DNA of 64,000 nt, from NCBI RefSeq assembly GCF_005144585.1, contig NZ_SSMQ01000036.1, forward strand, positions 1 through 64,000, in the 5' to 3' direction. This DNA is from Polyangium fumosum (GTDB taxonomy: Bacteria > Myxococcota_A > Polyangia > Polyangiales > Polyangiaceae). This document shows positions 3,103 through 42,489 of this stretch, piece by piece. How positions within the stretch are numbered: the first letter of the stretch is position 1; each line of letters begins with the position of its first letter. A program made the position numbers and the translations under genes. The notes beneath the pieces are model-generated. The model had not been told where the DNA came from. It made no database searches and saw only the letters and a list, made by a program, of their open reading frames with translations.

Positions 3103-4116
3103 TCAGAATCGCAGCACGATCTTCCCGAAATGCCCGCCGCTCTCCATGTAGGTGAGCGCCTCGCGCGCCTCGCCGAAGGAGAACGTCTTGTCGTCGATCG
3201 CCGGCCGGAGCCCGCCCGCCTCGATCGCTCGGTTCATCGCCTCGAACATCGCCCGCGAGCCGACCATGATGCCCTGGAGCCGGAGGTGCTTCATCAGGAT
3301 CGGGAGCACGCTCATCTCCTGCGCTCCGCCTGAAAGCACGCCGATCACGCTCACCGTGCCCGCGATGCGCGTGGCGCGCATCGAACGCGCGAGTGTTCCC
3401 GCGCCGCCGACCTCGACCAAGTGGTCGACGCCCACGCCGCCCGTCAGCTCGAGGGCCTTCTTGTCCCAGTCCGGCGTGGTTTTGTAGTTGATCGTCGCCC
3501 ACGCGCCGAGCGACTTCGCGCGCTCGAGCTTCGCGTCGCTGCTCGACGTCACGATCACGCGCGCGCCGGCGAGGTGGGCGAATTGCAGCGCGAAGATCGA
3601 CACGCCGCCCGTCCCCTGCACGAGCACCGTATCGCCCGGAGAAACCCTTCCGGCGCAAAAGAGCGCATTGTACGCCGTCACGGCTGCGCAGGGGAGGGTC
3701 GCCGCTTCCTCGTCGGAGAGGTGGGCGGGCACCTTCACGACGCCGGATTCGCCGGTCACGAAGAGCTCGGAGAGCACGCCGGGCAGGGGCCCGCCGAGCG
3801 TCGTCTTGAGCTTCTCGGCGTCGAGCTCGCCGTCTTGCCACGCTTGCGTGAAGATGGGGCAGACGCGGTCGCCTTTTTTCAGGCGCGTCACGGAGGGGCC
3901 CACCTCGATCACCTCGCCCACGCCGTCCGAGAACGGCACGAGCGGGAGGGGCTGGCGGGGGTTGTATTGGCCCCTGATCATCATGAGGTCGCGATAGTTG
4001 AGCGATGCCGCGCGCATCCGAATCACGACCTCACCGTGCCCCGGGGTGGGATCGGGCAGCGTGACCTCGGCGAGGGAGCCGAGCCCGAACGAGCCCTGAA
4101 TGACGATTGCCTTCAC
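3103..4116 (-). CDS. Zinc-free MDR/quinone-reductase-like NAD(P)-dependent oxidoreductase
   Basis: A medium-chain dehydrogenase/reductase of 337 residues. The GroES-like N-terminal half includes NYRDLMMIRGQY (residues 40-51), and the Rossmann half includes VLVQGTGGVSIFALQFA (164-180), the NAD(P)-binding loop. The four-cysteine structural zinc lobe of alcohol dehydrogenases is absent, which favours a zinc-free quinone-reductase-type member. I place the start at GTG 4116, five bases after a perfect GAGGAGG box at 4122-4128, rather than at the ATG 30 bases further out. The substrate is unknown. It stands alone and converges with the GNAT gene. Confidence 0.85.
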   Translation of the reverse strand: MKAIVIQGSFGLGSLAEVTLPDPTPGHGEVVIRMRAASLNYRDLMMIRGQYNPRQPLPLVPFSDGVGEVIEVGPSVTRLKKGDRVCPIFTQAWQDGELDAEKLKTTLGGPLPGVLSELFVTGESGVVKVPAHLSDEEAATLPCAAVTAYNALFCAGRVSPGDTVLVQGTGGVSIFALQFAHLAGARVIVTSSSDAKLERAKSLGAWATINYKTTPDWDKKALELTGGVGVDHLVEVGGAGTLARSMRATRIAGTVSVIGVLSGGAQEMSVLPILMKHLRLQGIMVGSRAMFEAMNRAIEAGGLRPAIDDKTFSFGEAREALTYMESGGHFGKIVLRF

Positions 4117-4472
4117 GAAAACCTCCTCGACCCGCGCTCGTCCCACGGCCTCCGGGCGGCGTCAACCCCTCGGAACGAAAACGACCGATCGCGGGACCGT
4201 CGGACGCCAGATCGGACATTCCGTGGCATATCATTGATGCAACGCTTCCGGCACATGAGACAGATTGCGTCCGCGCACGATCCACAGAGGCCGTCTTGGA
4301 TGCGGAAGCGGCACACCCGATCCCGGACATCCCATGTTCACGTGGGACATTCTTCGTCGCATCCACCTCCATCGAGGGGCAGCATTCGAATCACGTTCGT
4401 GATAAATGTGGAATCGTGACGTCGGCCTCGGGGGGTCGACATTCCGAGACGGAGCCGCACGGGAGGATCCCC
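4117..4472. promoter_or_regulatory. Intergenic region with a motif shared by two paralogous genes
   Basis: A 356-base stretch without a convincing gene, holding the divergent promoters of the oxidoreductase (minus) and the first paralogue (plus). At 4345-4359 it contains GGACATTCTTCGTCG, which recurs as GGACATTTTTCGTCA at 5180-5194. The two copies lie 128 and 119 bases upstream of the starts at 4473 and 5299. The matching distance suggests either a common regulatory element or duplication of the gene together with its promoter. Confidence 0.4.
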
Positions 4473-5069
4473 ATGGAGAAGGTCTCGCTGACGTACTTCG
4501 TCGACTTCGTGTTGAGATCCGGGACACCCAAGCTGACCGGCGTCCGCGAATACAAGGAACGCAAGGACGAGCTGAGCACGGATTTTTATCGCCCGATCCG
4601 GGAAGGCATCGTGGCCATGCACCGGCGCGGCGAGTGCGAATCCGTCCTCGACACGGTCCTCGCGGCGCAGACCGACGAGAAGCGACGACGTATCTATCCC
4701 CACGTCATCGGCGGATACCGGAAGTTCTTGGCCTCGGGCGACAAGCGATGGTTCGAGCCCCCGCGCGGCGCAATGAAGCTCGGCGACCTGGAGATCAACC
4801 TGAACCCCGAGGTCGGCTTCGTGATCGACAAGAGGCCCCACCTCGTCAAGCTCTATTTCCGCCAGGAGCCGCTCGCCGCGAAGCGCAGCGCCGTGGCCCT
4901 CGCGCTCCTCACGAGCGGGCTCTCACGCTTCTATCCGAATCACGTGATCACGATGCTCGACGTGCCGCGCGCGAAGCTCCACACCGCGAAGGACGTGCCG
5001 AATCCACGCCTCGACGTGCTCCTGCGCGGCGAAGCAGCCGCGTTCTCGACGATGTACGAAGCCCTGTGA
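4473..5069 (+). CDS. Conserved hypothetical protein, paralogue A
   Basis: A 198-residue soluble protein with no signal peptide, membrane segment or recognised catalytic motif. The start at ATG 4473 is fixed by GGGAGG seven bases upstream. It is a clear paralogue of the gene at 5299: both open with (V/I)SLTxFVDFVL and share a central block EK(R/K)RR-x-(Y/F)-x2-VIxGYR(K/R)FLA followed by WF(E/D)PPR, and a later (P)H(L/V)(V/I)K(L/M)YFR(Q/G)EPL. Overall it looks like a small alpha/beta protein that has diverged most at its C-terminus, where this copy is longer. I do not recognise the family and assign no function. Confidence 0.7.
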   Translation: MEKVSLTYFVDFVLRSGTPKLTGVREYKERKDELSTDFYRPIREGIVAMHRRGECESVLDTVLAAQTDEKRRRIYPHVIGGYRKFLASGDKRWFEPPRGAMKLGDLEINLNPEVGFVIDKRPHLVKLYFRQEPLAAKRSAVALALLTSGLSRFYPNHVITMLDVPRAKLHTAKDVPNPRLDVLLRGEAAAFSTMYEAL

Positions 5070-5179
5070 CGCGAAAGGGCGACCCGTAAGGGGTGGTCGC
5101 TCCACTTTCCTGGACGCGTCGATTTCCACGCTGGATCGTGTTGACTTGGACGAATCGGCTCCGTTGTTGGGGTCCGCAC

Positions 5180-5194
5180 GGACATTTTTCGTCA
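5180..5194 (+). promoter_or_regulatory. Second copy of the shared upstream motif
   Basis: GGACATTTTTCGTCA differs from the copy at 4345-4359 at only two positions and lies 119 bases before paralogue B. No -10/-35 pair could be assigned with confidence around it. Confidence 0.35.
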
Positions 5195-5298
5195 GAGGAA
5201 ATCTGCCATGGCCCGTCGGCGCGGGGGGATCCGTGGTATGGAAGCCTGTGCCGGTAACCCATACGGCAGCTTGGTCTTGAAGATGTGGCGGAGGGATC

Positions 5299-5862
5299 AT
5301 GAATAGAATCTCGCTGACGGGATTCGTGGACTTCGTGCTCGAAGCTGGCGCGGGCGGCGACGGGGATCCGCTGAAGGAGCGCAAGGGAGATTCGGCCCCC
5401 GATTATTATCATCCGCTTCGCGACGCGATCGTGCAGATGCACCGCGAGGATCTGTTGCCCGCGACGCTCGACGCGGCGATCACGCGCGAGCCGAGCGAGA
5501 AGAAGCGCCGCGTGTTCGCGCGCGTCATCGAGGGCTACCGGCGCTTCCTCGCCACGGGGACCATGAAATGGTTCGATCCGCCCCGGACCAGCTATCGCAT
5601 GGGCGCCCACAACGTCGATGTGGCCCCGGAGCTCGGGCTCGCGATCGACGAGACGCCCCACGTGATCAAGATGTACTTCCGCGGCGAGCCGCTCACGCCC
5701 CGCCGCACGAGCGTGATGCTGAGCCTTCTCGCAGGCCGCCTCGGGCGCATTTGCCCCGGGCACGTCTTCGCCGTGCTCGACGTCCGCCACGGCAAGCTGC
5801 ACGCCGTGAGCACGCCGGAAGAGCGCTTCGGCATCCTGCGCGCCTCGAACGAAGGCCGCTGA
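5299..5862 (+). CDS. Conserved hypothetical protein, paralogue B
   Basis: A 187-residue paralogue of the gene at 4473. ATG 5299 is preceded by GGAGGG at good spacing. It conserves the opening ISLTGFVDFVL, the central SEKKRRVFARVIEGYRRFLA block and the HVIKMYFRGEPLTPRR segment. No motif indicates an enzyme. The 229-base gap between the two genes carries the repeated upstream motif, so each copy probably has its own promoter. Function unknown; a regulatory or structural intracellular role is as likely as any. Confidence 0.7.
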   Translation: MNRISLTGFVDFVLEAGAGGDGDPLKERKGDSAPDYYHPLRDAIVQMHREDLLPATLDAAITREPSEKKRRVFARVIEGYRRFLATGTMKWFDPPRTSYRMGAHNVDVAPELGLAIDETPHVIKMYFRGEPLTPRRTSVMLSLLAGRLGRICPGHVFAVLDVRHGKLHAVSTPEERFGILRASNEGR

Positions 5863-5970
5863 CGCGGGGCCGGCCGCCCGGCCTGCCGTTCGGTGGATCT
5901 TTGCGGGCCGTGGTACGTCTGTAGAGGCCCCGCGCGCGCCCTTCTCCCAGCGCCGGGTCGAGGTCCCCCG

Positions 5971-7431
5971 ATGAAGGTCCAAAGCGTCGCCCTCCTGAGC
6001 GCCCTCGGCATGCTGGTGTCGGGTTCGTCCGGCTACCTCCTCGCCCCCGCCACCTCGGGCGCCACGACGCTCGGCGCGGCCCCGGAGGCGCGGGTGGGCG
6101 ACGTGGCGCCCGCGACGGCGGCCCAGGACGTCGCCGCGACCTTCAGCACGGGCACGACGCTGCGGATGGAGGGCCGGCTCGGGCACGGGCGGCTCGAACA
6201 AGGCGGGGCGCGGACGACGTACGTGATGGTCGAGGTCCACGCCGACGGGGCCGAGGACGGGAAGCGCGTCGCCGAGAACCACCTGGCGATCGTGATCGAT
6301 CGCTCGGGCTCGATGAAAGGCGACAGGCTCCCGCGGGCGCTCGCGGCGGCGAACGCGGCCGTCGATCGCCTCGAAGACGGCGATCGGGTCAGCGTGATCT
6401 CGTTCGACACGCGCCCCACGACCGACGTCTCCATGACCACCGTGAACACCTCGACCCGCCAGGTGATCCGGTCCGCGATCCAGAACATCGCCCTCGGCGG
6501 CGACACCTGCATCTCGTGCGGGATCCAGGCCGGCGTCGACGAGCTGCGCCGGAGCGAAAGCGCGGCGGATCGAATGATCGTGCTCAGCGACGGCGACGCG
6601 ACGGCCGGCGTGCGTGACGTCCCGGGCTTCGCGTCCATCGCCCGGTCGGCCCGCGACGCCGGGATCGGCGTGAGCACGATCGGCGTGGGCACGTCCTACA
6701 ACCAGAAGATCATGGGCGCGATCGCGCTGCATTCGGGCGGGCGCCACCATTTCATCGAGGACGCCGCCTCGCTCGAGCGCGTCTTCCTCGCCGAGGCCGA
6801 CAAGCTGCGGAGCACCGTCGCCGTCTCCGCCGCCGTGACCGTCGATCTCGCCGAAGGCGTCACGCTGGCGCGCGTCTTCGATCGCTCGTTCAGCCGCAAC
6901 GGGCAGCGCCTCACGGTCCCGCTCGGCAACTTCTCCGCGGGCGACACGAAGACGTTGCTGCTCGAACTTCAGGTCCCCGCCGACGCGGAAGGGATCACGC
7001 CCGTGGCCGACGTGCGCCTCCGGTTCGACGATCGGAAGACGGGCGGGGAAGGCTCGTGCAGCGGCAAGCTCGACGTGCGTATCGGCGCGGACGGGGAGGC
7101 GGGATCGGAGCTCGATCCGATCATCGCGACGCGCATCGAGCGGACCCGAACGGCCGACACGCTCGACGCGGTGAACGATCTCCTGGAGCAAGGTCGCACC
7201 GAGGAGGCCGAGGCCAAGCTCGCGGCGCAGGAGAAGTCGCTGCGCGAGGTGACCGAGCGGGCGAGGCGCGCGGGGGGAGGGACCAAAGGCGAGGTGCTCG
7301 CCCAGGATCTGGAGGAGCAGACGAGCACGATCGCGGGCGCGAAGAAGGACGTCGCGGCGAAGCCGAAGGGGATCGACAAGGCCCGCGCGCAGCGGAAGTA
7401 CGTGGAAGCGGCGAACCCCTACCGCGACTGA
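5971..7431 (+). CDS. Exported von Willebrand factor A domain protein
   Basis: A 486-residue protein read from ATG 5971 (MKVQSVALL), which gives a clean signal peptide; an in-frame ATG upstream at 5893 would bury it. The VWA domain starts near residue 100 and has the metal-ion-dependent adhesion site DRSGS (110-114), a threonine in GGDTC and an aspartate in LSDGDA, so a divalent metal can bind. After a beta-rich middle region the last 100 residues are charged and helix-rich (LLEQGRTEEAEAKL and neighbours), possibly a coiled coil. Likely a periplasmic or surface ligand-binding protein, similar to the inter-alpha-trypsin-inhibitor-like VWA proteins of myxobacteria. Confidence 0.85.
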   Translation: MKVQSVALLSALGMLVSGSSGYLLAPATSGATTLGAAPEARVGDVAPATAAQDVAATFSTGTTLRMEGRLGHGRLEQGGARTTYVMVEVHADGAEDGKRVAENHLAIVIDRSGSMKGDRLPRALAAANAAVDRLEDGDRVSVISFDTRPTTDVSMTTVNTSTRQVIRSAIQNIALGGDTCISCGIQAGVDELRRSESAADRMIVLSDGDATAGVRDVPGFASIARSARDAGIGVSTIGVGTSYNQKIMGAIALHSGGRHHFIEDAASLERVFLAEADKLRSTVAVSAAVTVDLAEGVTLARVFDRSFSRNGQRLTVPLGNFSAGDTKTLLLELQVPADAEGITPVADVRLRFDDRKTGGEGSCSGKLDVRIGADGEAGSELDPIIATRIERTRTADTLDAVNDLLEQGRTEEAEAKLAAQEKSLREVTERARRAGGGTKGEVLAQDLEEQTSTIAGAKKDVAAKPKGIDKARAQRKYVEAANPYRD

Positions 7432-26025: not shown

Positions 26026-26709
26026 ATGAGATGCCAGAACTGCCGTCAGGAGGCGCCCACCATCGTGCGAGGGGCGCGCGCGTATTGCACGGCCTGCGGC
26101 GCGCCTCGCTCGCTTCTGGAGGACACGCCCGTCAACGTCGCGGGCCAGCCGTCGAAGATCGGCGGCGGCGTGGCGAGCGTGGCTGGCTGGGTGATCCTGA
26201 TCACGGGCGTCCTCGTGTCGCTCGCGCTCGGGGGGCTGATCTCGCTCGCGAGCGCGACCGTCGCGTGGATCGTCGGCGGGTTTTTGGGCGCCATGAGCGT
26301 GCTTTTTGGCCTGCTGTTCATCCTGGGCGGCCGTTTGCTCTGGAAGACGGGCAAGGAGCGCGAGCGGGGGGCGCACGAGCAGGCGGTGTTCGCGGTGGCG
26401 CGGCGGAACTCCGGGTCGGTCACGCCCGCCGAGCTCGCGCGCGCCCTGAACGTGAGCGAGGTGGAGGCCGACGCGCTGCTCACGGAGATGGCGAAACGCC
26501 CGGACGGGTATGTCTCGCTGGAGGTCGACGATGACGGGACGCTCCGGTATTACGTGAAAGGCACGGGGAGCGCGCGTATTGGTGCGCCGCGCGTCCGTGT
26601 GGGGATGGGCGGGGCGCCGGGGTCTTCGCAAGCGGCCGAGGCGGAGGCGCTCGCCGAGGCGGAGATGGGCGAGGAAGACGCCCAGGCGCGGGCCCAGCGT
26701 CGGCGTTAA
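26026..26709 (+). CDS. Zinc-ribbon, two-TM protein with winged-helix-like domain
   Basis: A 227-residue protein. An N-terminal zinc ribbon uses Cys3, Cys6, Cys21 and Cys24. Two transmembrane helices follow at about 48-75 and 77-103, rich in Gly/Leu/Ile. Residues 115-175 look like a small winged helix: NSGSVTPAELARALNVSEVE, then LLTEMAKRPDGYVSLEVDDD and LRYYV. The C-terminus is Ala/Glu rich. Proteins with this ribbon-TM-helix layout are usually hypothetical. Its stop overlaps the end of the convergent pilY1 gene by four bases. Confidence 0.7.
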   Translation: MRCQNCRQEAPTIVRGARAYCTACGAPRSLLEDTPVNVAGQPSKIGGGVASVAGWVILITGVLVSLALGGLISLASATVAWIVGGFLGAMSVLFGLLFILGGRLLWKTGKERERGAHEQAVFAVARRNSGSVTPAELARALNVSEVEADALLTEMAKRPDGYVSLEVDDDGTLRYYVKGTGSARIGAPRVRVGMGGAPGSSQAAEAEALAEAEMGEEDAQARAQRRR

Positions 26710-29700
26710 TCGAGGACGACGCCCCACGAATCGACCGTCACGGTTCCGCGCAGGCGCGGCAGCGGTTTGGTGAACGTGCGTGTCTTCGAGCCCTCGCTCG
26801 CCTGGCCGCCGCGCCCGGTCTGGAACACGAGCTGGAAATCGCCGCCCGTGGAGGGGCCCATCGCCGTGACGGAGCCGAGCCAAGGATCGGGGAAGGTGAC
26901 GGGGGCATAACAGCTCGGCGTTTGCAGGGCGGCGACGCCGAAGACGACGGTGCCCGGGGGCTGATCCTCGAAATAGCTGGTTTGGCCGGGCGCCAGGGCG
27001 GGGTCTTTCACGTACCGGGGGCAAGGCCATCCGGGGGGCGGGGCCGGGCCGTTGGGGCTGCAAGCGGTTGTCCGGAGATAATCGACGCCCCATACGGAGC
27101 CGTGTCCATCGGAGCAGGCGGCGCCGGGGTTTCCTTCGGGTGTGAAGGTCGCGAAATAGGCGGCGCCGTCGAAGAGGGAAATGGGTCCGGTGACGCGCAC
27201 GCCGTTCTCGAAGGGAATCGTCCAGTTGTGGCGGGTCACGAGGCCGTCCTTGGAGGCGTCTTCCAGGATCGAGGTGATACGCGCCCGGACGCCCGCGCTT
27301 TTCGTGAACGTCTCCTGATCACCCGTGGAGAAAAGAATCACGGGGCGGCCGAGCGGATCGACGCTGACGATGGGCGGGGTCTCGACGGGCTGGCGCGCCG
27401 AGGCCGTGTCGCCGGGGAGGGAATACGCGTCCCAGGCGAGGCGCGCAGACCATTTCGAGGGTTCGGGGCTCGTGAGGTCGATCCGATAGAGGTTTCCATC
27501 GGCATCCCCGACGTACACGCGATCGGCGACCTGCCCCGGCTGGGCCGGGAAAGGGGTCGGGATGCCGGTGACCGGGGCATCGAAGGAAAAGGGGCGAATC
27601 CGCGACGGCGCGAGGGCGGGGCCGTCCGAGGGCAAACCACGAAAGGTCGCGAGGATCTCGCCGGTGTCGAGGCGAGCAAGCGTCAGGGATCGTGCGGGCA
27701 GGGCTGCGCCGCTCGAAGTGTTGTGGCATCGCACGGCGAGGGCGCCGGACGAGGGCTTTTGGGGTTCGTCCGGCGCGACGAGCGAGCCCTGCACGAGGCG
27801 CGGGCAGGCGCCGGCGCCGGGTGGCCCGGAGGCGCCGCCCGAGAGCAAGGCGACCGCGACTTCCTCGAGATCACCTTTGCCGTCGTCGATCGCGATCGTG
27901 GCGATGGCCGGGCGTGGCGTCTCGGATCCGAAAAGGGGCGCGCCGGCGTCGTCCGTCGAGAGCTGCCAGAGGAAACGCGGGGTTTCCGGGTCGGTCACGT
28001 CGAGCGCATAATAAAAGCCGCCGCCCATGCCGCCGCCGGCGAGGAGCACGGTGCGCCATTTCGTGCTCGCTGAGCCGGCTTGGGCATCGGCGCGGGTGCG
28101 GGAGAGGACGACGTCACGAAGGACGGGGCTGCCGTCGAGGAGGAAGGCCTGCTGCCGGTAGGTCGGGAGGAGGCCGGGGAGGACGTGCGGCGGGAAAAAC
28201 GACCATACTTCGTTGTTCGCGAGCGTATCGACGCGCAAGGGATCGGCGGGGTCGTTCGCGGCGACCTTGAAGGCGTGGAGCTGGCCGTCGGTGGTGGCGA
28301 CGAAAAGCACGGGCGGTCGTTTTTGCGAGGCGGGATCGGAGGCAAACGCGGCATACGCTTCGTCGCGGAGGAAAACGCGCGGCGGCGTCATGACGGCGGG
28401 GACGGCGTGGTAGATGCTGCCGAGCTCGTGGCCGCTGCGCGCATGCGGGACGAGGGGATCGCCGATTTCCCAGCGCATCACGGCCTCGGCGCAGGCGTTT
28501 GCCGTGGGGGAAGGGAGCGCGAGGGCTTTGCAGGTCTCCGGGAGGGAGCCCGGGTCGATGCCGAGCGCAGCGGGCGCGAGGGCGAGGGTTTCGGCGAAAT
28601 GCGCCCCTTCGAGCAGGCCCGTGGAGACGCCGCCGGTGGAGGCAAATCCGTCGCTCTTCTGGAGGTGGGGCCGGATGCTGCCGCGGGACGGAATGGTTTG
28701 TCCAGCAGGGTCGGCGAGGACCGTGAAGAAGCGCCGGGCCGGAACCCCCGTGGCGAGGTTGGCCTCGAAGTCGTCGCCTTTTTGCGGGTCGACGGGGGCG
28801 AGGACGGGCACTTCGAGGCCGCCTTGGTTCTCGCACACGTATCGTTTTCGTTCGAGGTTGCCGCTCCAGGGCTCGCCGGGCGGGGCGTCGAAGGAGGTGA
28901 CGAACTGGTATCCCGCGGCGGACGCGTCTCCCTGGGCCGACGCAGCGCCGGCGGAGGCGAAGACGGGGATCGTGCGGCTCGTGGATTTCGACGAGACGAA
29001 CGCGAGGACGGCGTCGAGGGCCTTGCGGAGGGAAGGTAGGTCCGAGGCGAAATAGGCGCGCTCGGTGCCGCCCTCGTGCGCGATCCGCGCGAGGGTGCAG
29101 CAGGCGGCGAGGCTCCCGTCCGCGCCCGCGCAAGGGCCGCTCGGATCGAGCAGGTCCGCAGGCGCGAGGGACGCGCAATCGACGCCGCCGACCCCGGAGA
29201 GGCCAAAGCCCACGGCAAACGTGGGAAGGGGGCTCGTTCCCGTGGCGAGGTCGTGGGCGATTTCCCAGGGCCTGGGGTAAGGGCATTTTCCGTCGCCCGC
29301 GGCGCAGGCGTCACGCAGATCGAGGTTGGGCTCGCCGTCGGAGAGGACGAGGACGAATTGCGGTCGGCAGCCTCCTTTTTGATAGGGGTCCTCGGCCGGG
29401 CCGAGCGGGGCGCCGGTCGTGGGGTGTTTCGTGGTGTCGTGCAACAAGAAATCACGCGCGTCGGCCAGCATGCCGGCGAGCGGCGTCGCGCCGAAGGGGC
29501 GGAGGGCGAGGAGCGTGCGCTGGATGCGCGCGTTCTGCGCCCGGACCTCGGCGATCGGCGCGTCGTACCCGCCAAACCCGACGAGCCCACCTTCCCAGGG
29601 CGGCGCGGCGGGGTTTTTCGCGCCGACCTCGAACGGCTGCTCCGCGCACCCGGCGGGATGGCCGTGGGCCGGCGCGGCGCCGTCGTTCCATCCGAGAAAA

Positions 29701-30305
29701 TAGCTGTGGTCGCCCGCCGCGCCCGTGCCGGGGTGCGGGAGCGAATCGAAGGTCATGAGCCCAAAGCGCACGCGGTCGCGGTAGGTATCGAGCAGGCCGT
29801 CCGCGTCTTGCCGGAATCCGGGCGCGTCGCAGGGCATTGGGAGATGGTTCCAGGCGTGCGTGCGGATGGCGTCGTCGGAGACCTCGTACCAGGGCGAGGG
29901 CAAGACGCCGGGGCCGTGGGTGCATCCGTTCGAGAGAATGCGATGGAACGGGAGGTGGTAGGCGGCATCCGCGGGCGGGGCGCCGCCGATCGAATACTCG
30001 TCGAGGAACGCGGAGGTGCCGCGGTCCTGTGCGAAGCATGAAAAGTTTTGGATCGTGCCCGTCAGGACGGAGACGAGCGTGGCCCAGCGATTCATGGGCG
30101 TCGTCGCGCCGGGGAGGCACGCGGCGCCCGCCTCCTCGGGCCTCCTGCCATCGACCATGTTCTCCATCGATCCGGAGGTGTCGAGGAGCAGGAGGACATT
30201 GGGCAGGGGCGGATTCACGTCGACCTGCGCGCGAGCGAGATCGGCGGCGAGAAAAGAAGCGAGCGCGAGACCCGTCGAGCCCCAAAAAGAAGAAAGCGAG
30301 CGCAT
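26706..30305 (-). CDS. pilY1: PilY1-type pilus-associated adhesin with VWA domain
   Basis: A 1199-residue secreted protein starting at ATG 30305, with GGAGGG just upstream. The signal peptide ends LARAQ. The VWA domain opens with LLLLDTSGSM (D42-S46) and includes LSDGEPNLDL. The C-terminal half is the PilY1 beta-propeller: VLFVATTDGQLHAFKV, WRTVLLAGGGMGGGFYYALD, VTDPETPRFLW and RVYVGDADGNLYRIDL, the last an acidic calcium-loop type motif. Such proteins sit at the type IV pilus tip and control adhesion, retraction and surface sensing. The pilMNOPQ genes lie 17 kb away; minor pilins, often next to pilY1, are absent here. Confidence 0.9.
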   Translation of the reverse strand: MRSLSSFWGSTGLALASFLAADLARAQVDVNPPLPNVLLLLDTSGSMENMVDGRRPEEAGAACLPGATTPMNRWATLVSVLTGTIQNFSCFAQDRGTSAFLDEYSIGGAPPADAAYHLPFHRILSNGCTHGPGVLPSPWYEVSDDAIRTHAWNHLPMPCDAPGFRQDADGLLDTYRDRVRFGLMTFDSLPHPGTGAAGDHSYFLGWNDGAAPAHGHPAGCAEQPFEVGAKNPAAPPWEGGLVGFGGYDAPIAEVRAQNARIQRTLLALRPFGATPLAGMLADARDFLLHDTTKHPTTGAPLGPAEDPYQKGGCRPQFVLVLSDGEPNLDLRDACAAGDGKCPYPRPWEIAHDLATGTSPLPTFAVGFGLSGVGGVDCASLAPADLLDPSGPCAGADGSLAACCTLARIAHEGGTERAYFASDLPSLRKALDAVLAFVSSKSTSRTIPVFASAGAASAQGDASAAGYQFVTSFDAPPGEPWSGNLERKRYVCENQGGLEVPVLAPVDPQKGDDFEANLATGVPARRFFTVLADPAGQTIPSRGSIRPHLQKSDGFASTGGVSTGLLEGAHFAETLALAPAALGIDPGSLPETCKALALPSPTANACAEAVMRWEIGDPLVPHARSGHELGSIYHAVPAVMTPPRVFLRDEAYAAFASDPASQKRPPVLFVATTDGQLHAFKVAANDPADPLRVDTLANNEVWSFFPPHVLPGLLPTYRQQAFLLDGSPVLRDVVLSRTRADAQAGSASTKWRTVLLAGGGMGGGFYYALDVTDPETPRFLWQLSTDDAGAPLFGSETPRPAIATIAIDDGKGDLEEVAVALLSGGASGPPGAGACPRLVQGSLVAPDEPQKPSSGALAVRCHNTSSGAALPARSLTLARLDTGEILATFRGLPSDGPALAPSRIRPFSFDAPVTGIPTPFPAQPGQVADRVYVGDADGNLYRIDLTSPEPSKWSARLAWDAYSLPGDTASARQPVETPPIVSVDPLGRPVILFSTGDQETFTKSAGVRARITSILEDASKDGLVTRHNWTIPFENGVRVTGPISLFDGAAYFATFTPEGNPGAACSDGHGSVWGVDYLRTTACSPNGPAPPPGWPCPRYVKDPALAPGQTSYFEDQPPGTVVFGVAALQTPSCYAPVTFPDPWLGSVTAMGPSTGGDFQLVFQTGRGGQASEGSKTRTFTKPLPRLRGTVTVDSWGVVLD

Positions 30306-30560: not shown

Positions 30561-31889
30561 ATGGTGCGGTCGGGGAGGTGTTGGGGGAGGCGCGGCGCGC
30601 TGGTGGTCGCCGCGCTGCTGGCGACAGGGTGCGGGGAGGAGGCGCCGCCTTATGATGCGCTTCCGCTGCGAGATGCGCTCCGCGCGGCGCCCGAGGTGAT
30701 GGCGTCGCTGCCGAAGGAGACACGTCGTGAGGTGGCGCAACGGCTGGAAGAAGCCGGGATCACTTCCGTCGAGGAGCGGCTCGTCCTGCCGCCGCGCGAC
30801 ATCCCGACGATCGACGCGCTCGCGAGCGCCGCGGACGAGGAGCGCGAGGAGCAAGGAAAGGACGCGCTCGTGCTCGGCGCGATCGAGCGGGAAGGCGCGG
30901 AGCTGCTGCTCGAAGCGCGTGAAGCCAAGGAGGCGACCGATACGAACGAGGGGCCGCCGAAGATGCGGGGGCGCCCAGGGAACACGACGGCGGCGCTCGA
31001 AGCCGCGGCGCTCGAGGGGCGCGCGGGGCGCTGGGTGCGTGATCTCGCGAAACGGTCGGACGCCAAGGAGATCGTGCGGACGACGGGCCTGCCGATGGGC
31101 GCCTGGGCCTTCGACGATACGCTGTACGTGAATGCGTCGTGGCTCGTCGCGCTCGCGGCGCTGGAGGAGGAGGGCGCGCCGATCGTGCCCGGCCCCGCGG
31201 TCGTGCCGATGCCGGGGATGCCCGGCTCGAAGCCTTTGTCGGTCGATTTCAATCCGTACAAGCTGCCCGACAGCGTGGAGGCGTGCTCGCTGCAGGTGCA
31301 GACGACGTGCGGCTGCGCGGCGAGCGGGACGTGTGATCACGACGTGACGGATCCGACGTTCTCCGACGCGAATGCAGAGTGCACGTGGGTGAACCAGGCC
31401 GCGGCGAACGCGGCGGCGCTCTGCGTGCTCGCGCTGATGAACATCGACGGGGTGCGGGCGTGCGTGGAGTCGGGTGGATCGATCTGCGCGGCGCTGCCGG
31501 TGACGACGCGGGACGACGCGCTCGCGTTCCTGGCGAGCGAGAGCTGCATGGGCTTGCTCCAGCAATGCCTCGCGGACGGGAGCCTGTCGGGGGATTCGTC
31601 GGGCAGCGGGAGCGGGTCGTCGAGCTGCGGGGGTTGCTCGGGCAGCTCGTGCGGCGGATGCAACGACGATTGTTCGAAGTGCAACGACAATTGCTCGAAG
31701 TGCAATGACAATTGCGCGGACTGCAACCAGAACTGCAAGGACTGTAACAGCAACTGCAAGGGCAGCCAGTGCGCCGTCGCGCGGCGGCCTGGGCGTTCTC
31801 CCCTGCCCTCGCCGGTCGGAACGGCGTTCTGGTTGTCGCTCCCGGTCGCGTACCTTTATCTCCTGTCGCAACGCAGGAGGCGGCCATGA
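30561..31889 (+). CDS. Lipoprotein with CNxxCxx heptads and a C-terminal membrane anchor
   Basis: A 442-residue protein. ATG 30561 follows GAGGAAGGGGG. The N-terminal lipobox is LLATGC (Cys24). Residues 60-200 are helical and charged, and 235-350 hold scattered cysteines (CGCAASGTCDHD). Then come SCGGCSGSSCGGC and five perfect heptads CNDDCSK, CNDNCSK, CNDNCAD, CNQNCKD, CNSNCKG (367-401), ending SQC. A transmembrane helix (about 418-436, VGTAFWLSLPVAYLYLL) and the basic tail QRRRRP finish it. The tripartite end resembles CTERM sorting signals. Its stop overlaps the start of the Lgt-like gene, so the two are made together. Confidence 0.8.
   Translation: MVRSGRCWGRRGALVVAALLATGCGEEAPPYDALPLRDALRAAPEVMASLPKETRREVAQRLEEAGITSVEERLVLPPRDIPTIDALASAADEEREEQGKDALVLGAIEREGAELLLEAREAKEATDTNEGPPKMRGRPGNTTAALEAAALEGRAGRWVRDLAKRSDAKEIVRTTGLPMGAWAFDDTLYVNASWLVALAALEEEGAPIVPGPAVVPMPGMPGSKPLSVDFNPYKLPDSVEACSLQVQTTCGCAASGTCDHDVTDPTFSDANAECTWVNQAAANAAALCVLALMNIDGVRACVESGGSICAALPVTTRDDALAFLASESCMGLLQQCLADGSLSGDSSGSGSGSSSCGGCSGSSCGGCNDDCSKCNDNCSKCNDNCADCNQNCKDCNSNCKGSQCAVARRPGRSPLPSPVGTAFWLSLPVAYLYLLSQRRRRP
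31659..31763 (+). repeat. Five in-frame 21-bp repeats encoding CNxxCxx heptads
   Basis: Five consecutive 21-base units, each beginning tgcaac, tgcaat or tgtaac, encode C-N-x-N/D-C-x-x. Third-position changes between units show that the repeat is kept at the protein level and is not a recent slippage product. Confidence 0.85.
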
Positions 31890-33613
31890 GGAGCCTCGTC
31901 GTGGCATGGCTCGAGCGCCACGGGTTGCCCGGGTGGCTCGCGCCTGATTACATGGTGATGGTGGGGCTCGCGGCGCTGCTCGGCGCGATCGCGACGCAAA
32001 GGTTGTCGCGGCGCGACGGAGCCGACGCAGGGCTCGAAGGGCGGGCGCTCCTCGCGGCGTATGCCGGGGCGCTCGCGGGGGGATACGTCTTCGAATGGCT
32101 GCGGGCGCTGCCGGAGGCGCTCCTTTCGCGGTCGCTCGACCCGCTGCTGCACGCGGGGCGCGCGGCATACGGTGGGCTCTTGATGGGGGCACTCGCGGCA
32201 GCCTGGGTGCTGCGCCGCGGGGGCGCAACGGCGCTGCCGTTTCTGGATCGGGCGGTTCCGCTGTGCGGGATCTCGTACGGATTCGTGCGAACGGGCTGTT
32301 TCCTCGCGGGGTGTGATTACGGCAAACCCACGGCGGGTTTCTTCGGGGTGCGGTTCCCGGCCGGGAGCCCGGCGGCGCTCGATCACGCTTCGCTCGGCTG
32401 GGTCCCGCAAGGGGCGCCGAGCCTGCCCGTGCACCCGACGCAGCTTTACGAGGCGGTGGTGGGGCTCGTGGCAGGCGTGGTGGCGTCGCTCTGGCTCCTC
32501 GGTCCGCGGCGCGACGGGCGGGCGTTCGGCACGTGGATCGCGCTGTATGCCACGGGGCGGTTTTGCGTGGAAATGGTTCGCGGCGACGCGTCGCGCGGGA
32601 CGTACGGGCCCTTGAGCTCGGCGCAGCTCGTGTCGATCGTGCTGCTCGTCGGCGTGGGCGCGGCCGTGGTGCTCGCGCGGAAGGGTCCGCGGCTGTCGCT
32701 GGCCTCGGCGATGCTGGCCGCGGCGGCGCTCGTCGTGCCGGAGGAGGCTGCGGCGCAACCGGCGAAACCGACGGGAACAACCACGCAGGCGCCGGCCGGG
32801 CAACCGCCCAAGCAGCCAGCGGGACAAACCCCTCCCGCGGCCGGGCCCAAAGCCGGCGCGGCGACGCCTTCGAGTGTCCCGCCGCCGCCGCCCGTGCAGC
32901 AGGCGCAGCCTTATCCTCCGCCGCCGCAGGGCGGCACGGCGTATCCGTATCCGCCGCCTGCGCAGGGCGCGGCGCCGTACCCCTATCCCTACCCATATCC
33001 GCCGCCGCCGCAGGGGGCCGCGCCGTATCCGTACCCGTATCCCTACCCCTACCCGCCGCCGCCGCCGGGCGGGACGCCGACGGGCGTGAGATCCGTGCCG
33101 GCGGAGGAGCTCCCGCCGGAGGAGAAGCCCGCGGATCCGCAGAAGGAGTACAACAAGCTCCGCTTTGGCATCGGCCTCGCGGGCGGCGGGTATTTCGCGC
33201 CGGGCAGGTTCGCGGTGAAGGACGGCGCGCTCGTCGACCTGGAAGCCACGTACCGCATCGCCACGGGGTCGCGGCAGCGCTTCGAGATCGGCCTCGAAGG
33301 GCGCTTCGTGGGGACGAACGACGCGGCGCAATGGGGGATCGGCGTACCGCTCCGGTTCGTCACGGGCCTCGGCAGGTACGCGGAGATCGACTTCACGACG
33401 ATGCCGTTCTACTCGCGCGTGGTCTTCGACTCGGCCTACTTCGAGCCCGCCAACGGGTTCGGCGCGCGGTTCCAGCTCGGCTTCGGCTTCCCGCTCACCT
33501 CGCATTTCGCCATCGGATTCACCCCCCTCGGCTTCGGGATCATGGGGTCCGGCAGCGTCCATACGCTGTTCACGTACGAGCCGCGGTTCTGGGTGAAGGT
33601 CGCGCCGTTCTGA
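31886..33613 (+). CDS. Lgt-like (prolipoprotein diacylglyceryl transferase family) domain fused to an outer-membrane barrel
   Basis: A 575-residue protein starting at the ATG overlapping the previous stop, with CAGGAGG before it. Residues 1-265 are a multi-helix Lgt-like domain: GFVRTGCFLAGCDYGKPT (132-149) replaces the Lgt GRxGNF signature but keeps its arginine, HPTQLYE (183-189) matches HPSQLYE, and GRFCVE (224-229) keeps the later Arg and Glu. The histidine of the HGG motif is replaced by tyrosine (Y95). Residues 265-291 then read like a signal peptide ending EEAAAQ, followed by a Pro/Tyr-rich linker (292 to about 420) and a beta-barrel ending in phenylalanine. A lipid-transfer role is inferred. 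Confidence 0.75.
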   Translation: MRSLVVAWLERHGLPGWLAPDYMVMVGLAALLGAIATQRLSRRDGADAGLEGRALLAAYAGALAGGYVFEWLRALPEALLSRSLDPLLHAGRAAYGGLLMGALAAAWVLRRGGATALPFLDRAVPLCGISYGFVRTGCFLAGCDYGKPTAGFFGVRFPAGSPAALDHASLGWVPQGAPSLPVHPTQLYEAVVGLVAGVVASLWLLGPRRDGRAFGTWIALYATGRFCVEMVRGDASRGTYGPLSSAQLVSIVLLVGVGAAVVLARKGPRLSLASAMLAAAALVVPEEAAAQPAKPTGTTTQAPAGQPPKQPAGQTPPAAGPKAGAATPSSVPPPPPVQQAQPYPPPPQGGTAYPYPPPAQGAAPYPYPYPYPPPPQGAAPYPYPYPYPYPPPPPGGTPTGVRSVPAEELPPEEKPADPQKEYNKLRFGIGLAGGGYFAPGRFAVKDGALVDLEATYRIATGSRQRFEIGLEGRFVGTNDAAQWGIGVPLRFVTGLGRYAEIDFTTMPFYSRVVFDSAYFEPANGFGARFQLGFGFPLTSHFAIGFTPLGFGIMGSGSVHTLFTYEPRFWVKVAPF

Positions 33614-33621
33614 GGAAAACG

Positions 33622-35004
33622 ATGATGTCTCGATTCACGCGGGGCGCCTCGCGCCTCGCAGCCCCCCTTGCGCTCGTGCTCCTGCCCGCTTGCTCGGACG
33701 AGCCCGCGACCACGCCGCCGCCGGCGGAGATCGACATCTTCGACCGGCTGCAGGCCATCCCGGGGATGGTGGTGACGGAGGAGAACTCGGGGGTCGAGGG
33801 ATATCGGTACTTTGTGATGGAGTACGAGCAGCCGGCGGATCACGGCGCCGAGGGCGGGCCGGTCTTCCAGCAGCGCTTGCTCTTGCACCACAGGGACGAG
33901 GCCGCGCCGTTCGTGCTCGGGACGTCGGGGTACAACGTCAATCCCACGCGGCAAAGGCTGCGGGAGCCGGCGAGTTTTCTCCAGGCGAACCAGCTCTTCG
34001 TGGAGCAACGGTTCTTCACGCCCTCGAGGCCGGAGCCGGCCGACTGGTCGCTCTTGACGATCGAGCAGGCCGCGGCGGATCACCATCGCATCGTGGACGT
34101 GCTGAAGCCCATCTACACGGGCAAATGGATCTCGTCCGGCGCGAGCAAAGGCGGGATGACGTCCGTGTACCACCGGCGGTTTTTCCCGGACGACGTCGAC
34201 GGGACGGTCGCGTACGTGGCGCCGCACAGCTTCGGCACGCAGGATGCTCGATACCTCGATTTCGTGGCGTCGCTCGGGAGCTCGACCTGCAAGGACGCGC
34301 TGCGGTATTTCCAGCGCGAGGTGCTCCTGCGGCGCACGGCGATGCTCGAGCGAATCGACGCGCAGGCCACGATGGACGGGCTCACGTACGAGCTGCTCGG
34401 CCGGGAGAAGGCGCTCGAAGTGGCCACGCTTCAGCTCGTCTTCACGTTCTGGCAGTATTACGACGAGAGCATTTGTCCCGACATGACCGTCGCGCCGACG
34501 GACGACGATGTGTGGACGTTCCTCGACGAGATCGTCTCGCCGAGCCTCTTCTCGGACGAGGAGTTCCTCACGTACGAGCCTTATTACTGGCAAGCCGCCA
34601 CGGAGCTCGGGTATCCGGCGGTCGAGGAGTCGCACATCGCGGATCTCTTGCAGTTCCCCGGGATCGACGTGCCGGAGACGTATCTCACGCCGGGCAAGAC
34701 GCCGGTGTTCGATGCGACGGTGATGCAGGATATTTCCACCTGGATCTCGGCGGAGGGAGAGCGGCTTTTGTTCGTGTACGGGGAGACCGATCCATACACG
34801 GCGGCGGCCTTCGAACTCGGCAATGCGAAGGACAGCTACCTGTTCCTCGCGCCGGGGCTGAACCATTCCGCGTCGATCGTTGATTTGAGCGAGCCGGACC
34901 GCACGAAAGCGCTCGATGCGCTGGAGGCGTGGACGGGTGTCACGCCGGTCCTGCCGCCGGAGACGGCGATCCGGGAGCGCAGGACGCGGCGCGATCCCGA
35001 TTGA
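33622..35004 (+). CDS. S37 family (PS-10-like) tripeptidyl aminopeptidase lipoprotein
   Basis: A 460-residue exported protein with lipobox LLPAC. The serine peptidase nucleophile is in GASKGGM (Ser near residue 175), followed by YHRRFFPDDVDGTVAYVAPH, characteristic of family S37. The catalytic Asp is likely in VYGETDPY and the His in APGLNHSA near the C-terminus. The length fits the family. S37 enzymes release tripeptides from protein N-termini and are secreted in actinobacteria; here the protein would sit on the outer membrane and help predation or protein feeding. It follows the Lgt-like gene by eight bases, so it is probably in the same transcript. Confidence 0.88.
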   Translation: MMSRFTRGASRLAAPLALVLLPACSDEPATTPPPAEIDIFDRLQAIPGMVVTEENSGVEGYRYFVMEYEQPADHGAEGGPVFQQRLLLHHRDEAAPFVLGTSGYNVNPTRQRLREPASFLQANQLFVEQRFFTPSRPEPADWSLLTIEQAAADHHRIVDVLKPIYTGKWISSGASKGGMTSVYHRRFFPDDVDGTVAYVAPHSFGTQDARYLDFVASLGSSTCKDALRYFQREVLLRRTAMLERIDAQATMDGLTYELLGREKALEVATLQLVFTFWQYYDESICPDMTVAPTDDDVWTFLDEIVSPSLFSDEEFLTYEPYYWQAATELGYPAVEESHIADLLQFPGIDVPETYLTPGKTPVFDATVMQDISTWISAEGERLLFVYGETDPYTAAAFELGNAKDSYLFLAPGLNHSASIVDLSEPDRTKALDALEAWTGVTPVLPPETAIRERRTRRDPD

Positions 35005-39652: not shown

Positions 39653-42489
39653 GCGGACCGGAGCTTACGCTCCATCCGGCGTCTCCGCAGGAGAAAAAGC
39701 GCGGCGAGCGAGAGGAGGGCCGGCGAGGTCCCCGACACGTCTCCCGTTACCCGGCACCCACAACCGTCGTCGAGGACGAGCGGTCCCGTGGGCCGATCCC
39801 CGCCGCCCGACGAAGCGCCGCCCCCCATTCCACCAAGCCCGCCACCGCCGCCCGCGCCGGCCTCGCCGCCCGCACCGCCATTTCCAGCGGCACCGCCCGC
39901 ACCGCCGATTCCGCCGCTTCCGCCTGCACCGCCGCTCCCACCCGCACCGCCGCTTCCGCCGCCGCTCCCGCTTCCGCCGCCGCTCCCGCCTCCGCCGCCG
40001 CTCCCGCCTCCGCCGCCGCTTCCGCCTCCGCTCCCGCCTCCGCCTCCGCTCCCGCCTCCGCCGCCGCTTCCGCCTCCGCTCCCGCCTCCGCCGCCGCTTC
40101 CGCCTCCGCCGCCGCTCCCGCCGGCCCCGCCGCTTCCGTCGTCGGACACGATCCTCGCCCGGACGCGAATTCGCGCTGTCACGTCGTCAAACGCCCCGTA
40201 CGCGACGAGAACGTTCCCGGGCAGCCCCGCGCAAGCAATCGACGGGGTCTCGTCCTCCGGCTGCGCGCTGATCACGAAAGGCATTGCATCCACGGGCGTT
40301 CCGTCGGCGTGCAGCCGGAGCCCCGCGATGTCGTTTGCGCCCTCCGAGACGATCGAATACGTGACGACGTGGCCCGCGCCGTCGAAGGCCACGGAAGGCG
40401 CGCGCTCGGCGCTCGGGGTCGCCGCGAGCACGAGGCTGTTCGGATCGAGCACGACCCCCGCCGCCGTCACGCGCGCGGCGTGAATGTCGGGGGCCGTGGG
40501 CGCTCGCTCGTCCGACCACACGACGAGGAAGTCGCTCCCGTCGAAGCCCACCGAAGGGCTCGTCTGCGCGTTTGGCGCGACCGACACGGGGATACCCGCG
40601 GCGTCGAGGACCGTGCCGTTCGGATCGATCCGGAAAGCATAGATGTCGCCCTTCGTGTCGGTGCGCTGATCGGAGGCCACGGCGAGGAACAACGCGCCAT
40701 TCGAAGCCAGGCCCGAGAGGAACTGGGAGCCCGGCGCGGTCGTGATCGGAAAGCCCTGGGGATCTTGCACCGCGCCGAAAGGCGAGACACGCGCGCCGTA
40801 GATGTCCCACGCCGTGGCGCCATGGCGATCGTCGAGCCAGGCGACGAGCCAGGCATTGCCCGTGGACGCGACGGAGGGCGACTCCTGGGACGAGGTGCCC
40901 GTGGCGACGGGGAACCCGCCCGGATCGAGGACGACGCCGGCAGGATTGACGCGCGCCGCGTACACGTCGGTCTGGTTTTGCGTCGTGCGCCGGTCGGTCC
41001 AGACGACGAGATGGTTTTTCCCGTCGAACGAGACGCGCGGGTTCGCGACGGGGCCCTGGCCCGTCGCGACGAGGATCGCCGAGGCGTCGAGGACCTGCCC
41101 CGCAGGGCTCACGCGGACGCCGGCCACGACGCTGCCTTTGTTGCGCGTGTCCGCCCAGACGACGAACCAATTCGTCCCGTCGAACGCGGCGTCGCCAATG
41201 CGCTCCTCGTTCGGCGCCGTGGAGAGGAGCTTCGCCGGCGTGTCCACGGCCGTGCCGCCCTGGGGGATACGCGCGCCGAAAATGTCGCGGTTGTCCGCGT
41301 CGGCATCCCACGCGGCGAGGGTATGTGTCGCGCCGGGCGCGAGCGCGACGGAGACGTCGTCCGCGCCGCCCTTGACCACGATGAACCCGGCCGGATCGAG
41401 GACCGTGCCCTGCGAATCGATGCGGGTGCCATAAAGATCGTACACGCCGCCGCCATTGCGCAGGTCTTCCCAGGCGGCGACGTAGTTCACGCCGTCCCAG
41501 GCGACCGACGGGTAGCGCTGCGCGCCCGAGGCCGCCGAGACGAGCAGGCCCGCGGCGTCGAGGACCGCGCCGTTCGGATCGACGCGCGCCCCATAGATGT
41601 CGTACGAGCTGCCGCTGCGGTAATCACGCCAGACGAGGAGCGCGTTCGTGCCATTGCTCGCGACCGCCGGGTACATCTGGCTGCCCGAGGCCGCAGAGAC
41701 GACAATGCCCGAAGGGTCGAGGACGACGCCCGCCGGCGTCACGCGCGCGGCATACACGTCCTGGTTCGTGCCGCTGCGATAGTCCTGCCAGGCGACGACG
41801 AAGCTCGTGCCGTCCCACGCGACCGAGGGGCGGCTTTGCTCGTTCGTGGCGGCGCCGATGGGGAGGCCGAGCGGGTCGAGCAGGACGCCGTTCGAGAGGA
41901 GGCGCGCGCCGTAGACGTCGTTCGAGGTGCCATTGCGGAGATCCTCCCAGACGATGAGGACGCGGCTGCTGCTGTCCGCGGCCATGGCCGGGGCGCGTTG
42001 CGCATTCGTGGCGCCGCCGAGGACGAACGAGGCGCCGAGCGGCGCGCCCGTGGGCCCGAAGCGCCGCGCGCGAATGTCCCAGCTCGTATCGTCGCCTGGG
42101 ACACCACTCTCCCACGCGACGACCCAGCCTGCGCCATCCCACGCGGCGGCGGGCGCGAGGTTGGACCCGACGGACGGCTCGATCTCGAAGCCCTGCGGAT
42201 CGAGCGGCGCGCCGGAGGGGCCCACGAGGACGCCGCGCAAGCCCGAGGAAAAACCGTCCGCCGCGTACGCTTCCCACACGACGAGCCAGTTCGTTCCGTC
42301 GTAGGCGACGGCCGGGGTCGTCTGTTTTCCCTGGGAAGGACCATAGGCCGGCGCGTCGAGCGGGATGCCGGGCGTGACGATACGGGCCGCGCTCGGGCCG
42401 ACGTCGGGGAGGCGGGCGCCCGCGCCGAACAAGGCGAGGAGGAGGGCGCCGAGGCCACAAGACAAGGGGAGGAAGCGCGGACGGGCCAT
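39649..42489 (-). CDS. Surface repeat protein with MYXO-CTERM sorting tail
   Basis: A 946-residue exported protein. After the signal peptide come about 14 repeats of roughly 50 residues, each of the form PSVAWDGT-x-(F/Y)VVAWxDxR followed by A(A/R)V-x2-GVVLDP, which suggests a beta-propeller or solenoid. Next is a Gly/Ser tract of about 100 residues (GGGSG units). The end is a MYXO-CTERM signal: GCGCRVTG, a hydrophobic helix (PALLSLAALFLL) and RRRR. The MYXO-CTERM cysteine is processed by a dedicated protease and leads to cell-surface display in Myxococcus. It lies 18 bases after the AgmX-like gene and is coupled to the STAS-like gene. Confidence 0.88.
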   Translation of the reverse strand: MARPRFLPLSCGLGALLLALFGAGARLPDVGPSAARIVTPGIPLDAPAYGPSQGKQTTPAVAYDGTNWLVVWEAYAADGFSSGLRGVLVGPSGAPLDPQGFEIEPSVGSNLAPAAAWDGAGWVVAWESGVPGDDTSWDIRARRFGPTGAPLGASFVLGGATNAQRAPAMAADSSSRVLIVWEDLRNGTSNDVYGARLLSNGVLLDPLGLPIGAATNEQSRPSVAWDGTSFVVAWQDYRSGTNQDVYAARVTPAGVVLDPSGIVVSAASGSQMYPAVASNGTNALLVWRDYRSGSSYDIYGARVDPNGAVLDAAGLLVSAASGAQRYPSVAWDGVNYVAAWEDLRNGGGVYDLYGTRIDSQGTVLDPAGFIVVKGGADDVSVALAPGATHTLAAWDADADNRDIFGARIPQGGTAVDTPAKLLSTAPNEERIGDAAFDGTNWFVVWADTRNKGSVVAGVRVSPAGQVLDASAILVATGQGPVANPRVSFDGKNHLVVWTDRRTTQNQTDVYAARVNPAGVVLDPGGFPVATGTSSQESPSVASTGNAWLVAWLDDRHGATAWDIYGARVSPFGAVQDPQGFPITTAPGSQFLSGLASNGALFLAVASDQRTDTKGDIYAFRIDPNGTVLDAAGIPVSVAPNAQTSPSVGFDGSDFLVVWSDERAPTAPDIHAARVTAAGVVLDPNSLVLAATPSAERAPSVAFDGAGHVVTYSIVSEGANDIAGLRLHADGTPVDAMPFVISAQPEDETPSIACAGLPGNVLVAYGAFDDVTARIRVRARIVSDDGSGGAGGSGGGGGSGGGGGSGGGSGGGGGSGGGGGSGGGSGGGGGSGGGGGSGGGSGSGGGSGGAGGSGGAGGSGGIGGAGGAAGNGGAGGEAGAGGGGGLGGMGGGASSGGGDRPTGPLVLDDGCGCRVTGDVSGTSPALLSLAALFLLRRRRMERKLRSA

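Follow-up and report, generated by a model that had tools for sequence, protein, structure and literature searches.

In bacteria, many surface proteins are anchored by a cysteine-bearing tag at the C-terminus. In this study, a pair of overlapping genes was analysed in a window of 64,000 bp (the whole stretch of DNA studied; positions 1 to 64,000 of contig NZ_SSMQ01000036.1, assembly GCF_005144585.1) from Polyangium fumosum. Gene 1 (30561–31889, forward strand; ATG at 30561, stop at 31889) encodes a Cys-tailed lipoprotein of 442 amino acids (AA), the presumed substrate, and gene 2 (31886–33613, forward strand) encodes a 575-AA Lgt-like protein with an outer-membrane barrel. The two genes may form a dyad of substrate and enzyme, in which a dedicated Lgt paralogue diacylglycerylates a cysteine of the C-terminal tag before a myxosortase cleaves it; the chances that this is correct were judged to be about even.

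The stop codon of gene 1 and the start codon of gene 2 share a 4-bp ATGA overlap (31886–31889, forward strand), and the same overlap could be seen in all members of the Lgt-like clade with readable flanks. In 20 of these 20 members, the window included, the overlapping neighbour encodes a Cys-bearing tail followed by a transmembrane (TM) helix and Arg residues, so that tail and Lgt-like enzyme are genetically inseparable. Lgt-like genes commonly standing without a Cys-tail neighbour, the outcome which the initial annotation had set against its own proposal, were thus not encountered. The tail gene lies upstream of the Lgt-like gene in 19 of the 20, and the pair persists in relatives whose Lgt identity is as low as about 38%. 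In L091 (6001–7403), which belongs to the basal branch, the order is reversed, with the Lgt gene preceding the tail gene and again an ATGA overlap; the 181-AA partner is unrelated to gene 1 except for the tail, CSGSDCDACGPCG...ACSRAP-TM-RKRERRRE. The partner in L057 (G052:C55) has its N-terminal part and its tail in different frames, an apparent frameshift or assembly error.

For comparison, a mechanical tail detector was applied to 111 non-clade Lgt loci, which were the best-scoring relatives and not a random sample. Seven matches were obtained, of which one (L105) was real on inspection; the matches at L149, L202 and L212 were LspA, and those at L073, L117 and L122 were shadow or doubtful open reading frames (ORFs). 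The L105 locus (4066–6837), from a Desulfobacterales metagenome-assembled genome, encodes a secreted protein 36 bp before an Lgt-like gene that lies outside the clade. Its tail, KPPGGGICGRSRKK-TM-RRIGRKRG (GGGICGRSRKK-TM), has one Cys, and the protein has no lipobox. No second dyad like L105 was found when the neighbours of the 29 best new loci from 297 Desulfobacterota genomes were inspected.

Comparison of the partners revealed variable domains: L051 and L052 are without the middle domain, L058 is without the N-terminal domain and L091 is without both, and only an N-terminal signal or anchor and the tail are common to all. The constant element of the tail is a single Cys a short way upstream of the helix; in most tails x-[VLIA]-[AGS] comes next, and the tail closes with the helix and Arg. 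In the gene 1 product this residue is Cys404 (31770–31772, forward strand; context SQC-AVARRPGR, thus C-A-V-A), which aligns with the single invariant tail Cys of the homologues in alignments A2 and A4 and is the proposed lipidation site. It precedes a C-terminal segment (AA 418–442; 31812–31886, forward strand) made up of a membrane helix (AA ~418–440, from sequence and AlphaFold) and RRRRP. MYXO-CTERM proteins have this same architecture, in which a secreted protein ends in a tripartite tail of Cys motif, TM helix and Arg cluster.

The main rival explanation, which was considered unlikely, takes gene 2 as a dedicated lipoprotein Lgt for the lipobox Cys and the C-terminal tail as only a membrane or sorting anchor. 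The N-terminus of the gene 1 product, MVRSGRCWGRRGALVVAALLATGC, is a lipoprotein signal peptide (30561–30632, forward strand) with the lipobox LATGC and Cys24. A lipobox-like N-terminus was present in 15 of the 16 gene-1-type clade partners with a readable N-terminus, the known Lgt reaction is that on the lipobox Cys, and the catalytic residues are kept in gene 2. However, a convincing lipobox could not be recognised in L058 and none is present in the flipped partner L091 or in L105, yet the Cys tail is kept. Moreover, the genome already encodes a canonical Lgt beside lspA (L068) together with two more Lgt-like paralogues, and the rival gives no reason for the tail and the enzyme remaining paired where the N-terminal part has been exchanged.

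The Lgt-family domain of gene 2 occupies AA 1–268 (31886–32689, forward strand). It matched the Pfam LGT family PF01790 (E 9e-33; 114 bits, cut-off 24.9), while the score against the NCBIfam lgt equivalog TIGR00544 was 47.1 bits, below the cut-off of 118.9. The AlphaFold models of the two proteins were built from shallow alignments (14 and 11 sequences) and had a mean predicted local distance difference test score (pLDDT) of 68 and 65; the Lgt domain, the barrel and the domains of the gene 1 product mostly scored 70–95. The gene-2 model showed the Lgt fold when compared with Escherichia coli Lgt (5azb; Z 21.1, root-mean-square deviation 3.9, 250 residues aligned). The family assignment and the overlap described in the initial annotation were confirmed.

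A changed active site had also been claimed. The replacements could indeed be seen, with Y95 at the position of E. coli His103 and GCFLAGCDYG where E. coli has GNFINGELWG, but they are ordinary in the Lgts of these phyla: among the lspA-linked Lgts sampled, Tyr replaces His103 in 16/19, Cys replaces Asn146 in 19/19 and Cys replaces Glu151 in 19/19. These replacements of H103, N146 and E151 are known natural Lgt variants (PMC13251419). A uniquely changed active site was therefore rejected, as lspA-linked and other Lgts carry the same replacements. R135, Y221, R225, E229 and R232, which correspond to E. coli R143, Y235, R239, E243 and R246, do not vary in any of the 22 clade members, and neither do the equivalents of G145, G154 and D129 (roles of the E. 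coli residues taken from PMC4728403 and PMC13251419). Changes specific to the clade were found at R73 (Arg in 19/19 lspA-linked Lgts but in no clade member), at G98 and at G142; in one subclade, G104 is also replaced by Trp. Because H103 and its surroundings (the HGGL motif) have been proposed to hold the acceptor peptide (PMC4728403), the residue pattern would fit preserved chemistry with an altered acceptor. Thus, gene 2 shares PF01790, the fold and the Arg143, Tyr235, Arg239, Glu243 and Arg246 equivalents with E. coli Lgt, but differs from it in not being linked to lspA, in its altered arm and acceptor-side positions, in always standing beside a Cys-tail gene and in its frequent fusion to a barrel.

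These residues also bear on a second, rather improbable explanation, in which the tail forms disulfide bonds or binds metal, and the Lgt-like protein has no catalytic role but serves tail and barrel as a membrane chaperone or partner. The CNxxC repeats in the tail of gene 1 resemble disulfide or metal ligands, the Lgt motif itself carries Cys at the positions of Asn146 and Glu151, and the Lgt domain and the barrel are parts of one fusion protein. However, invariance of the core catalytic residues over about 38–96% identity is unexpected for a dead enzyme, and Cys in this motif is normal for the canonical Lgts of these phyla. It was considered very unlikely that the pairing reflects mere co-expression of envelope genes with no enzyme–substrate relation. 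Operons of envelope genes are common, but the overlap is kept in all 20 loci while the genes downstream of the pair vary between families, and in L091 the pair was re-formed with reversed order and an unrelated partner.

Upstream of Cys404, the gene 1 product contains a Cys-rich disordered segment (31620–31763, forward strand; pLDDT <50 over AA 341–418), which includes five consecutive CNxxCxx heptads (31659–31763, forward strand): CNDDCSK, CNDNCSK, CNDNCAD, CNQNCKD and CNSNCKG. The heptads, the lipobox, the membrane helix and RRRR were all located where the initial annotation had placed them. A DNA pattern for two successive heptads occurred four times in the genome, each time at gene 1, and the reversed control pattern gave zero; considering this count and the conservation of the pair, the array is not due to chance. 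Such heptads are confined to Polyangium and Sorangium, whereas the Cys-bearing tail with TM helix and Arg is general. In a search for CNxxC tails elsewhere, the matches outside Polyangium were scattered sites. The idea that all heptad cysteines are modified to give a poly-lipidated tail, as first suggested, was the least likely of the explanations considered, for although almost every clade tail has many Cys and a thiol-lipidating enzyme is adjacent, their number and spacing vary widely (6–17 over the C-terminal 140 residues in the clade and 1 in L105), the heptad is lineage-restricted, and tens of residues would separate the heptads from the helix, with the Lgt active site at the membrane. 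Because the number and spacing of the tail cysteines are not conserved and the L105 partner has a single one, the Cys before the TM helix is the most likely modified site. The Cys-rich stretch upstream would be a disordered spacer, probably disulfide-bonded or metal-binding, with its detail depending on the lineage.

The proposed dyad can be placed beside the MYXO-CTERM system, which has been reported in all Myxococcota examined (PMC11980579). The myxosortase MrtX cleaves MYXO-CTERM proteins and needs the tag Cys for cleavage (Guo, Haft and Wall 2025, PMC11980579). Prior lipidation of the tag by an Lgt-like acyltransferase was proposed in the same work, where the cognate acyltransferase was stated as unidentified. 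That model requires such an enzyme, and the dyad fits the missing step for one substrate. In the P. fumosum genome, 68 MYXO-CTERM matches above the cut-off were found, and those tails which were read share C-x-[VA]-A-G. The myxosortase MrtC (NF040594) is encoded elsewhere in the genome (292.7 bits, cut-off 195). Among the orthologous tails, that of Polyangium sp. 6x1 (L086) reached 15.9 bits on TIGR03382 (cut-off 15.85) and that of L051, with 19.8 bits on TIGR03901, stayed 0.2 bits under the cut-off of 20. Another MYXO-CTERM match above the cut-off (30.4 bits) was observed within the window at 39676–39768 on the reverse strand, in a long open frame.

The pair resembles the MYXO-CTERM/myxosortase system (MrtX, MrtC) in the secreted protein, the tripartite tag (a single conserved Cys, a TM helix and a cluster of Arg), the C-x-V-A motif and the presence of MrtC, and lipidation of a tag Cys by an Lgt-like enzyme is what had been predicted for that system (PMC11980579). 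It differs in that the tails mostly fall below the curated thresholds, a long Cys-rich spacer is present, most partners have a lipobox, and one substrate has a dedicated Lgt paralogue of its own in a one-to-one coupling. By its description in PMC11980579, the MrtJ/JDVT-CTERM dyad similarly joins one sorting enzyme and one Cys-tagged target in two genes; its enzyme is a CPBP protease, whereas the enzyme here is a lipid transferase. The genes of TraA/TraB of Myxococcus, likewise by description (PMC11980579), also overlap and encode a surface protein anchored through a tag together with an outer-membrane barrel, but no Lgt is involved. The initial annotation knew of no described system with such a pair. 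In the open literature, too, no description of a pair made up of an Lgt and a C-terminal tag gene was found (the search did not extend to subscription papers, such as a previous in silico study of myxosortases that PMC11980579 cites); the tail, however, is of the known MYXO-CTERM type, and the Lgt-like step had already been proposed.

Based on these features, a sequence of events can be proposed. The gene 1 product would leave the cytoplasm through Sec and stay in the inner membrane by means of its C-terminal helix, and the housekeeping lipoprotein pathway would probably lipidate it at Cys24. Gene 2 would be made in step with gene 1 by way of the overlapping start codon, and its Lgt domain would move diacylglycerol from phosphatidylglycerol onto Cys404, just outside the helix. 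A myxosortase, with MrtC as the candidate, would then cut off the helix and the Arg cluster, and the C-terminally lipid-anchored protein would reach the cell surface. The barrel would probably be freed by signal peptidase I at an internal AxA site and inserted into the outer membrane, perhaps as a partner of the gene 1 product.

Several points weigh against this mechanism. Diacylglyceryl transfer and myxosortase cleavage at the tag were deduced from sequence, gene order and predicted structure. The gene 1 product itself (P0001) gave no match to TIGR03901 or TIGR03382, with scores below the thresholds, and most partners also have an N-terminal lipobox, the normal target of Lgt. The Desulfobacterales dyad was seen only once, in a metagenome-assembled genome. 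MYXO-CTERM processing has been observed in E. coli, which has only an ordinary Lgt (PMC11980579). In addition, only 14 of the 193 genomes from the class have an Lgt-like protein of this clade, so most MYXO-CTERM proteins do without its enzyme. Since the clade is rare and MYXO-CTERM is universal in the phylum, the idea that the clade lipidates MYXO-CTERM proteins in general was rejected; the remaining ones may be substrates of ordinary Lgt, in line with the processing in E. coli. A broader version, in which this Lgt branch is a C-terminal Cys diacylglyceryl transferase, the proteins are lipid-anchored at both ends, several tail Cys are lipidated in the heptad lineages and Desulfobacterota evolved a dyad of this kind independently, must be regarded as very doubtful.

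Phylogenetic analysis placed the Lgt-like proteins in a monophyletic clade (SH-aLRT 100; 21 members in the tree, including named strains found later), separate from the lspA-linked Lgts. The nearest relatives in the tree are from Polyangium (96–97% to G188; Polyangium sp. 6x1), the pair is also present in Sorangium cellulosum, and the clade extends to other Myxococcota, with 38–96% identity over the 14 genomes. A very divergent Lgt paralogue of the P. fumosum genome, L070 (G000:C113:120659-121330; end branch 2.16), perhaps belongs to the Myxococcales subgroup in which, according to PMC13251419, conserved Lgt residues show strong variation.

The C-terminal half of gene 2 had been missed in the initial annotation. 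The Lgt domain is followed by an internal signal-peptide-like segment (AA 269–290; 32690–32755, forward strand) with the signal peptidase I-like end EEAAA|Q, then by a Pro/Tyr-rich linker (AA 291–423; 32756–33154, forward strand) that is mostly disordered (pLDDT <50 over AA 269–405), and by an OmpA/NspA-type eight-stranded outer-membrane beta barrel (AA 424–575; 33155–33610, forward strand; NspA 1p4t Z 16.6, OmpA 1qjp Z 15.3). In most fused members, as seen in those that were read through this region, the Lgt part runs into a hydrophobic stretch that has a comparable end right ahead of the linker, AxA followed by Q or E (HVHA|Q in L060), which suggests that one ORF may give rise to two proteins, one in the inner and one in the outer membrane. 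The unfused members L051, L052, L054–L057 and L091 stop shortly past the last Lgt helix. No separate barrel genes were noticed downstream of them, although this was not a systematic search; the barrel therefore seems optional.

In gene 1, an N-terminal alpha/beta domain (AA 33–203; 30657–31169, forward strand) was predicted by AlphaFold with pLDDT mostly 70–95, and a helical domain with conserved cysteines (AA 239–340; 31275–31580, forward strand), absent in the partners L051 and L052, was recognised from the alignment and the model. Pfam and NCBIfam profile searches with gene 1 and its relatives gave no family match, and a Foldseek search with the whole gene-1 model as query gave 0 matches at E<=0.001. 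Upstream of the pair lies a divergent PilY1-like gene (26709–29990, reverse strand; T4P_PilY1, E 8e-9), and a Peptidase S37 lipoprotein-like gene (33622–35004, forward strand; E 6e-105) follows immediately 3'. A Peptidase S37-like gene adjoins the pair in G188 and G179 as well, and was not seen in more distant families.

The dyad thus offers a concrete candidate for the enzyme proposed to lipidate the tag cysteine, in a minimal system of two or three genes. If the proposed reaction is true, the targets of the Lgt family would widen from N-terminal lipoboxes to C-terminal tags.

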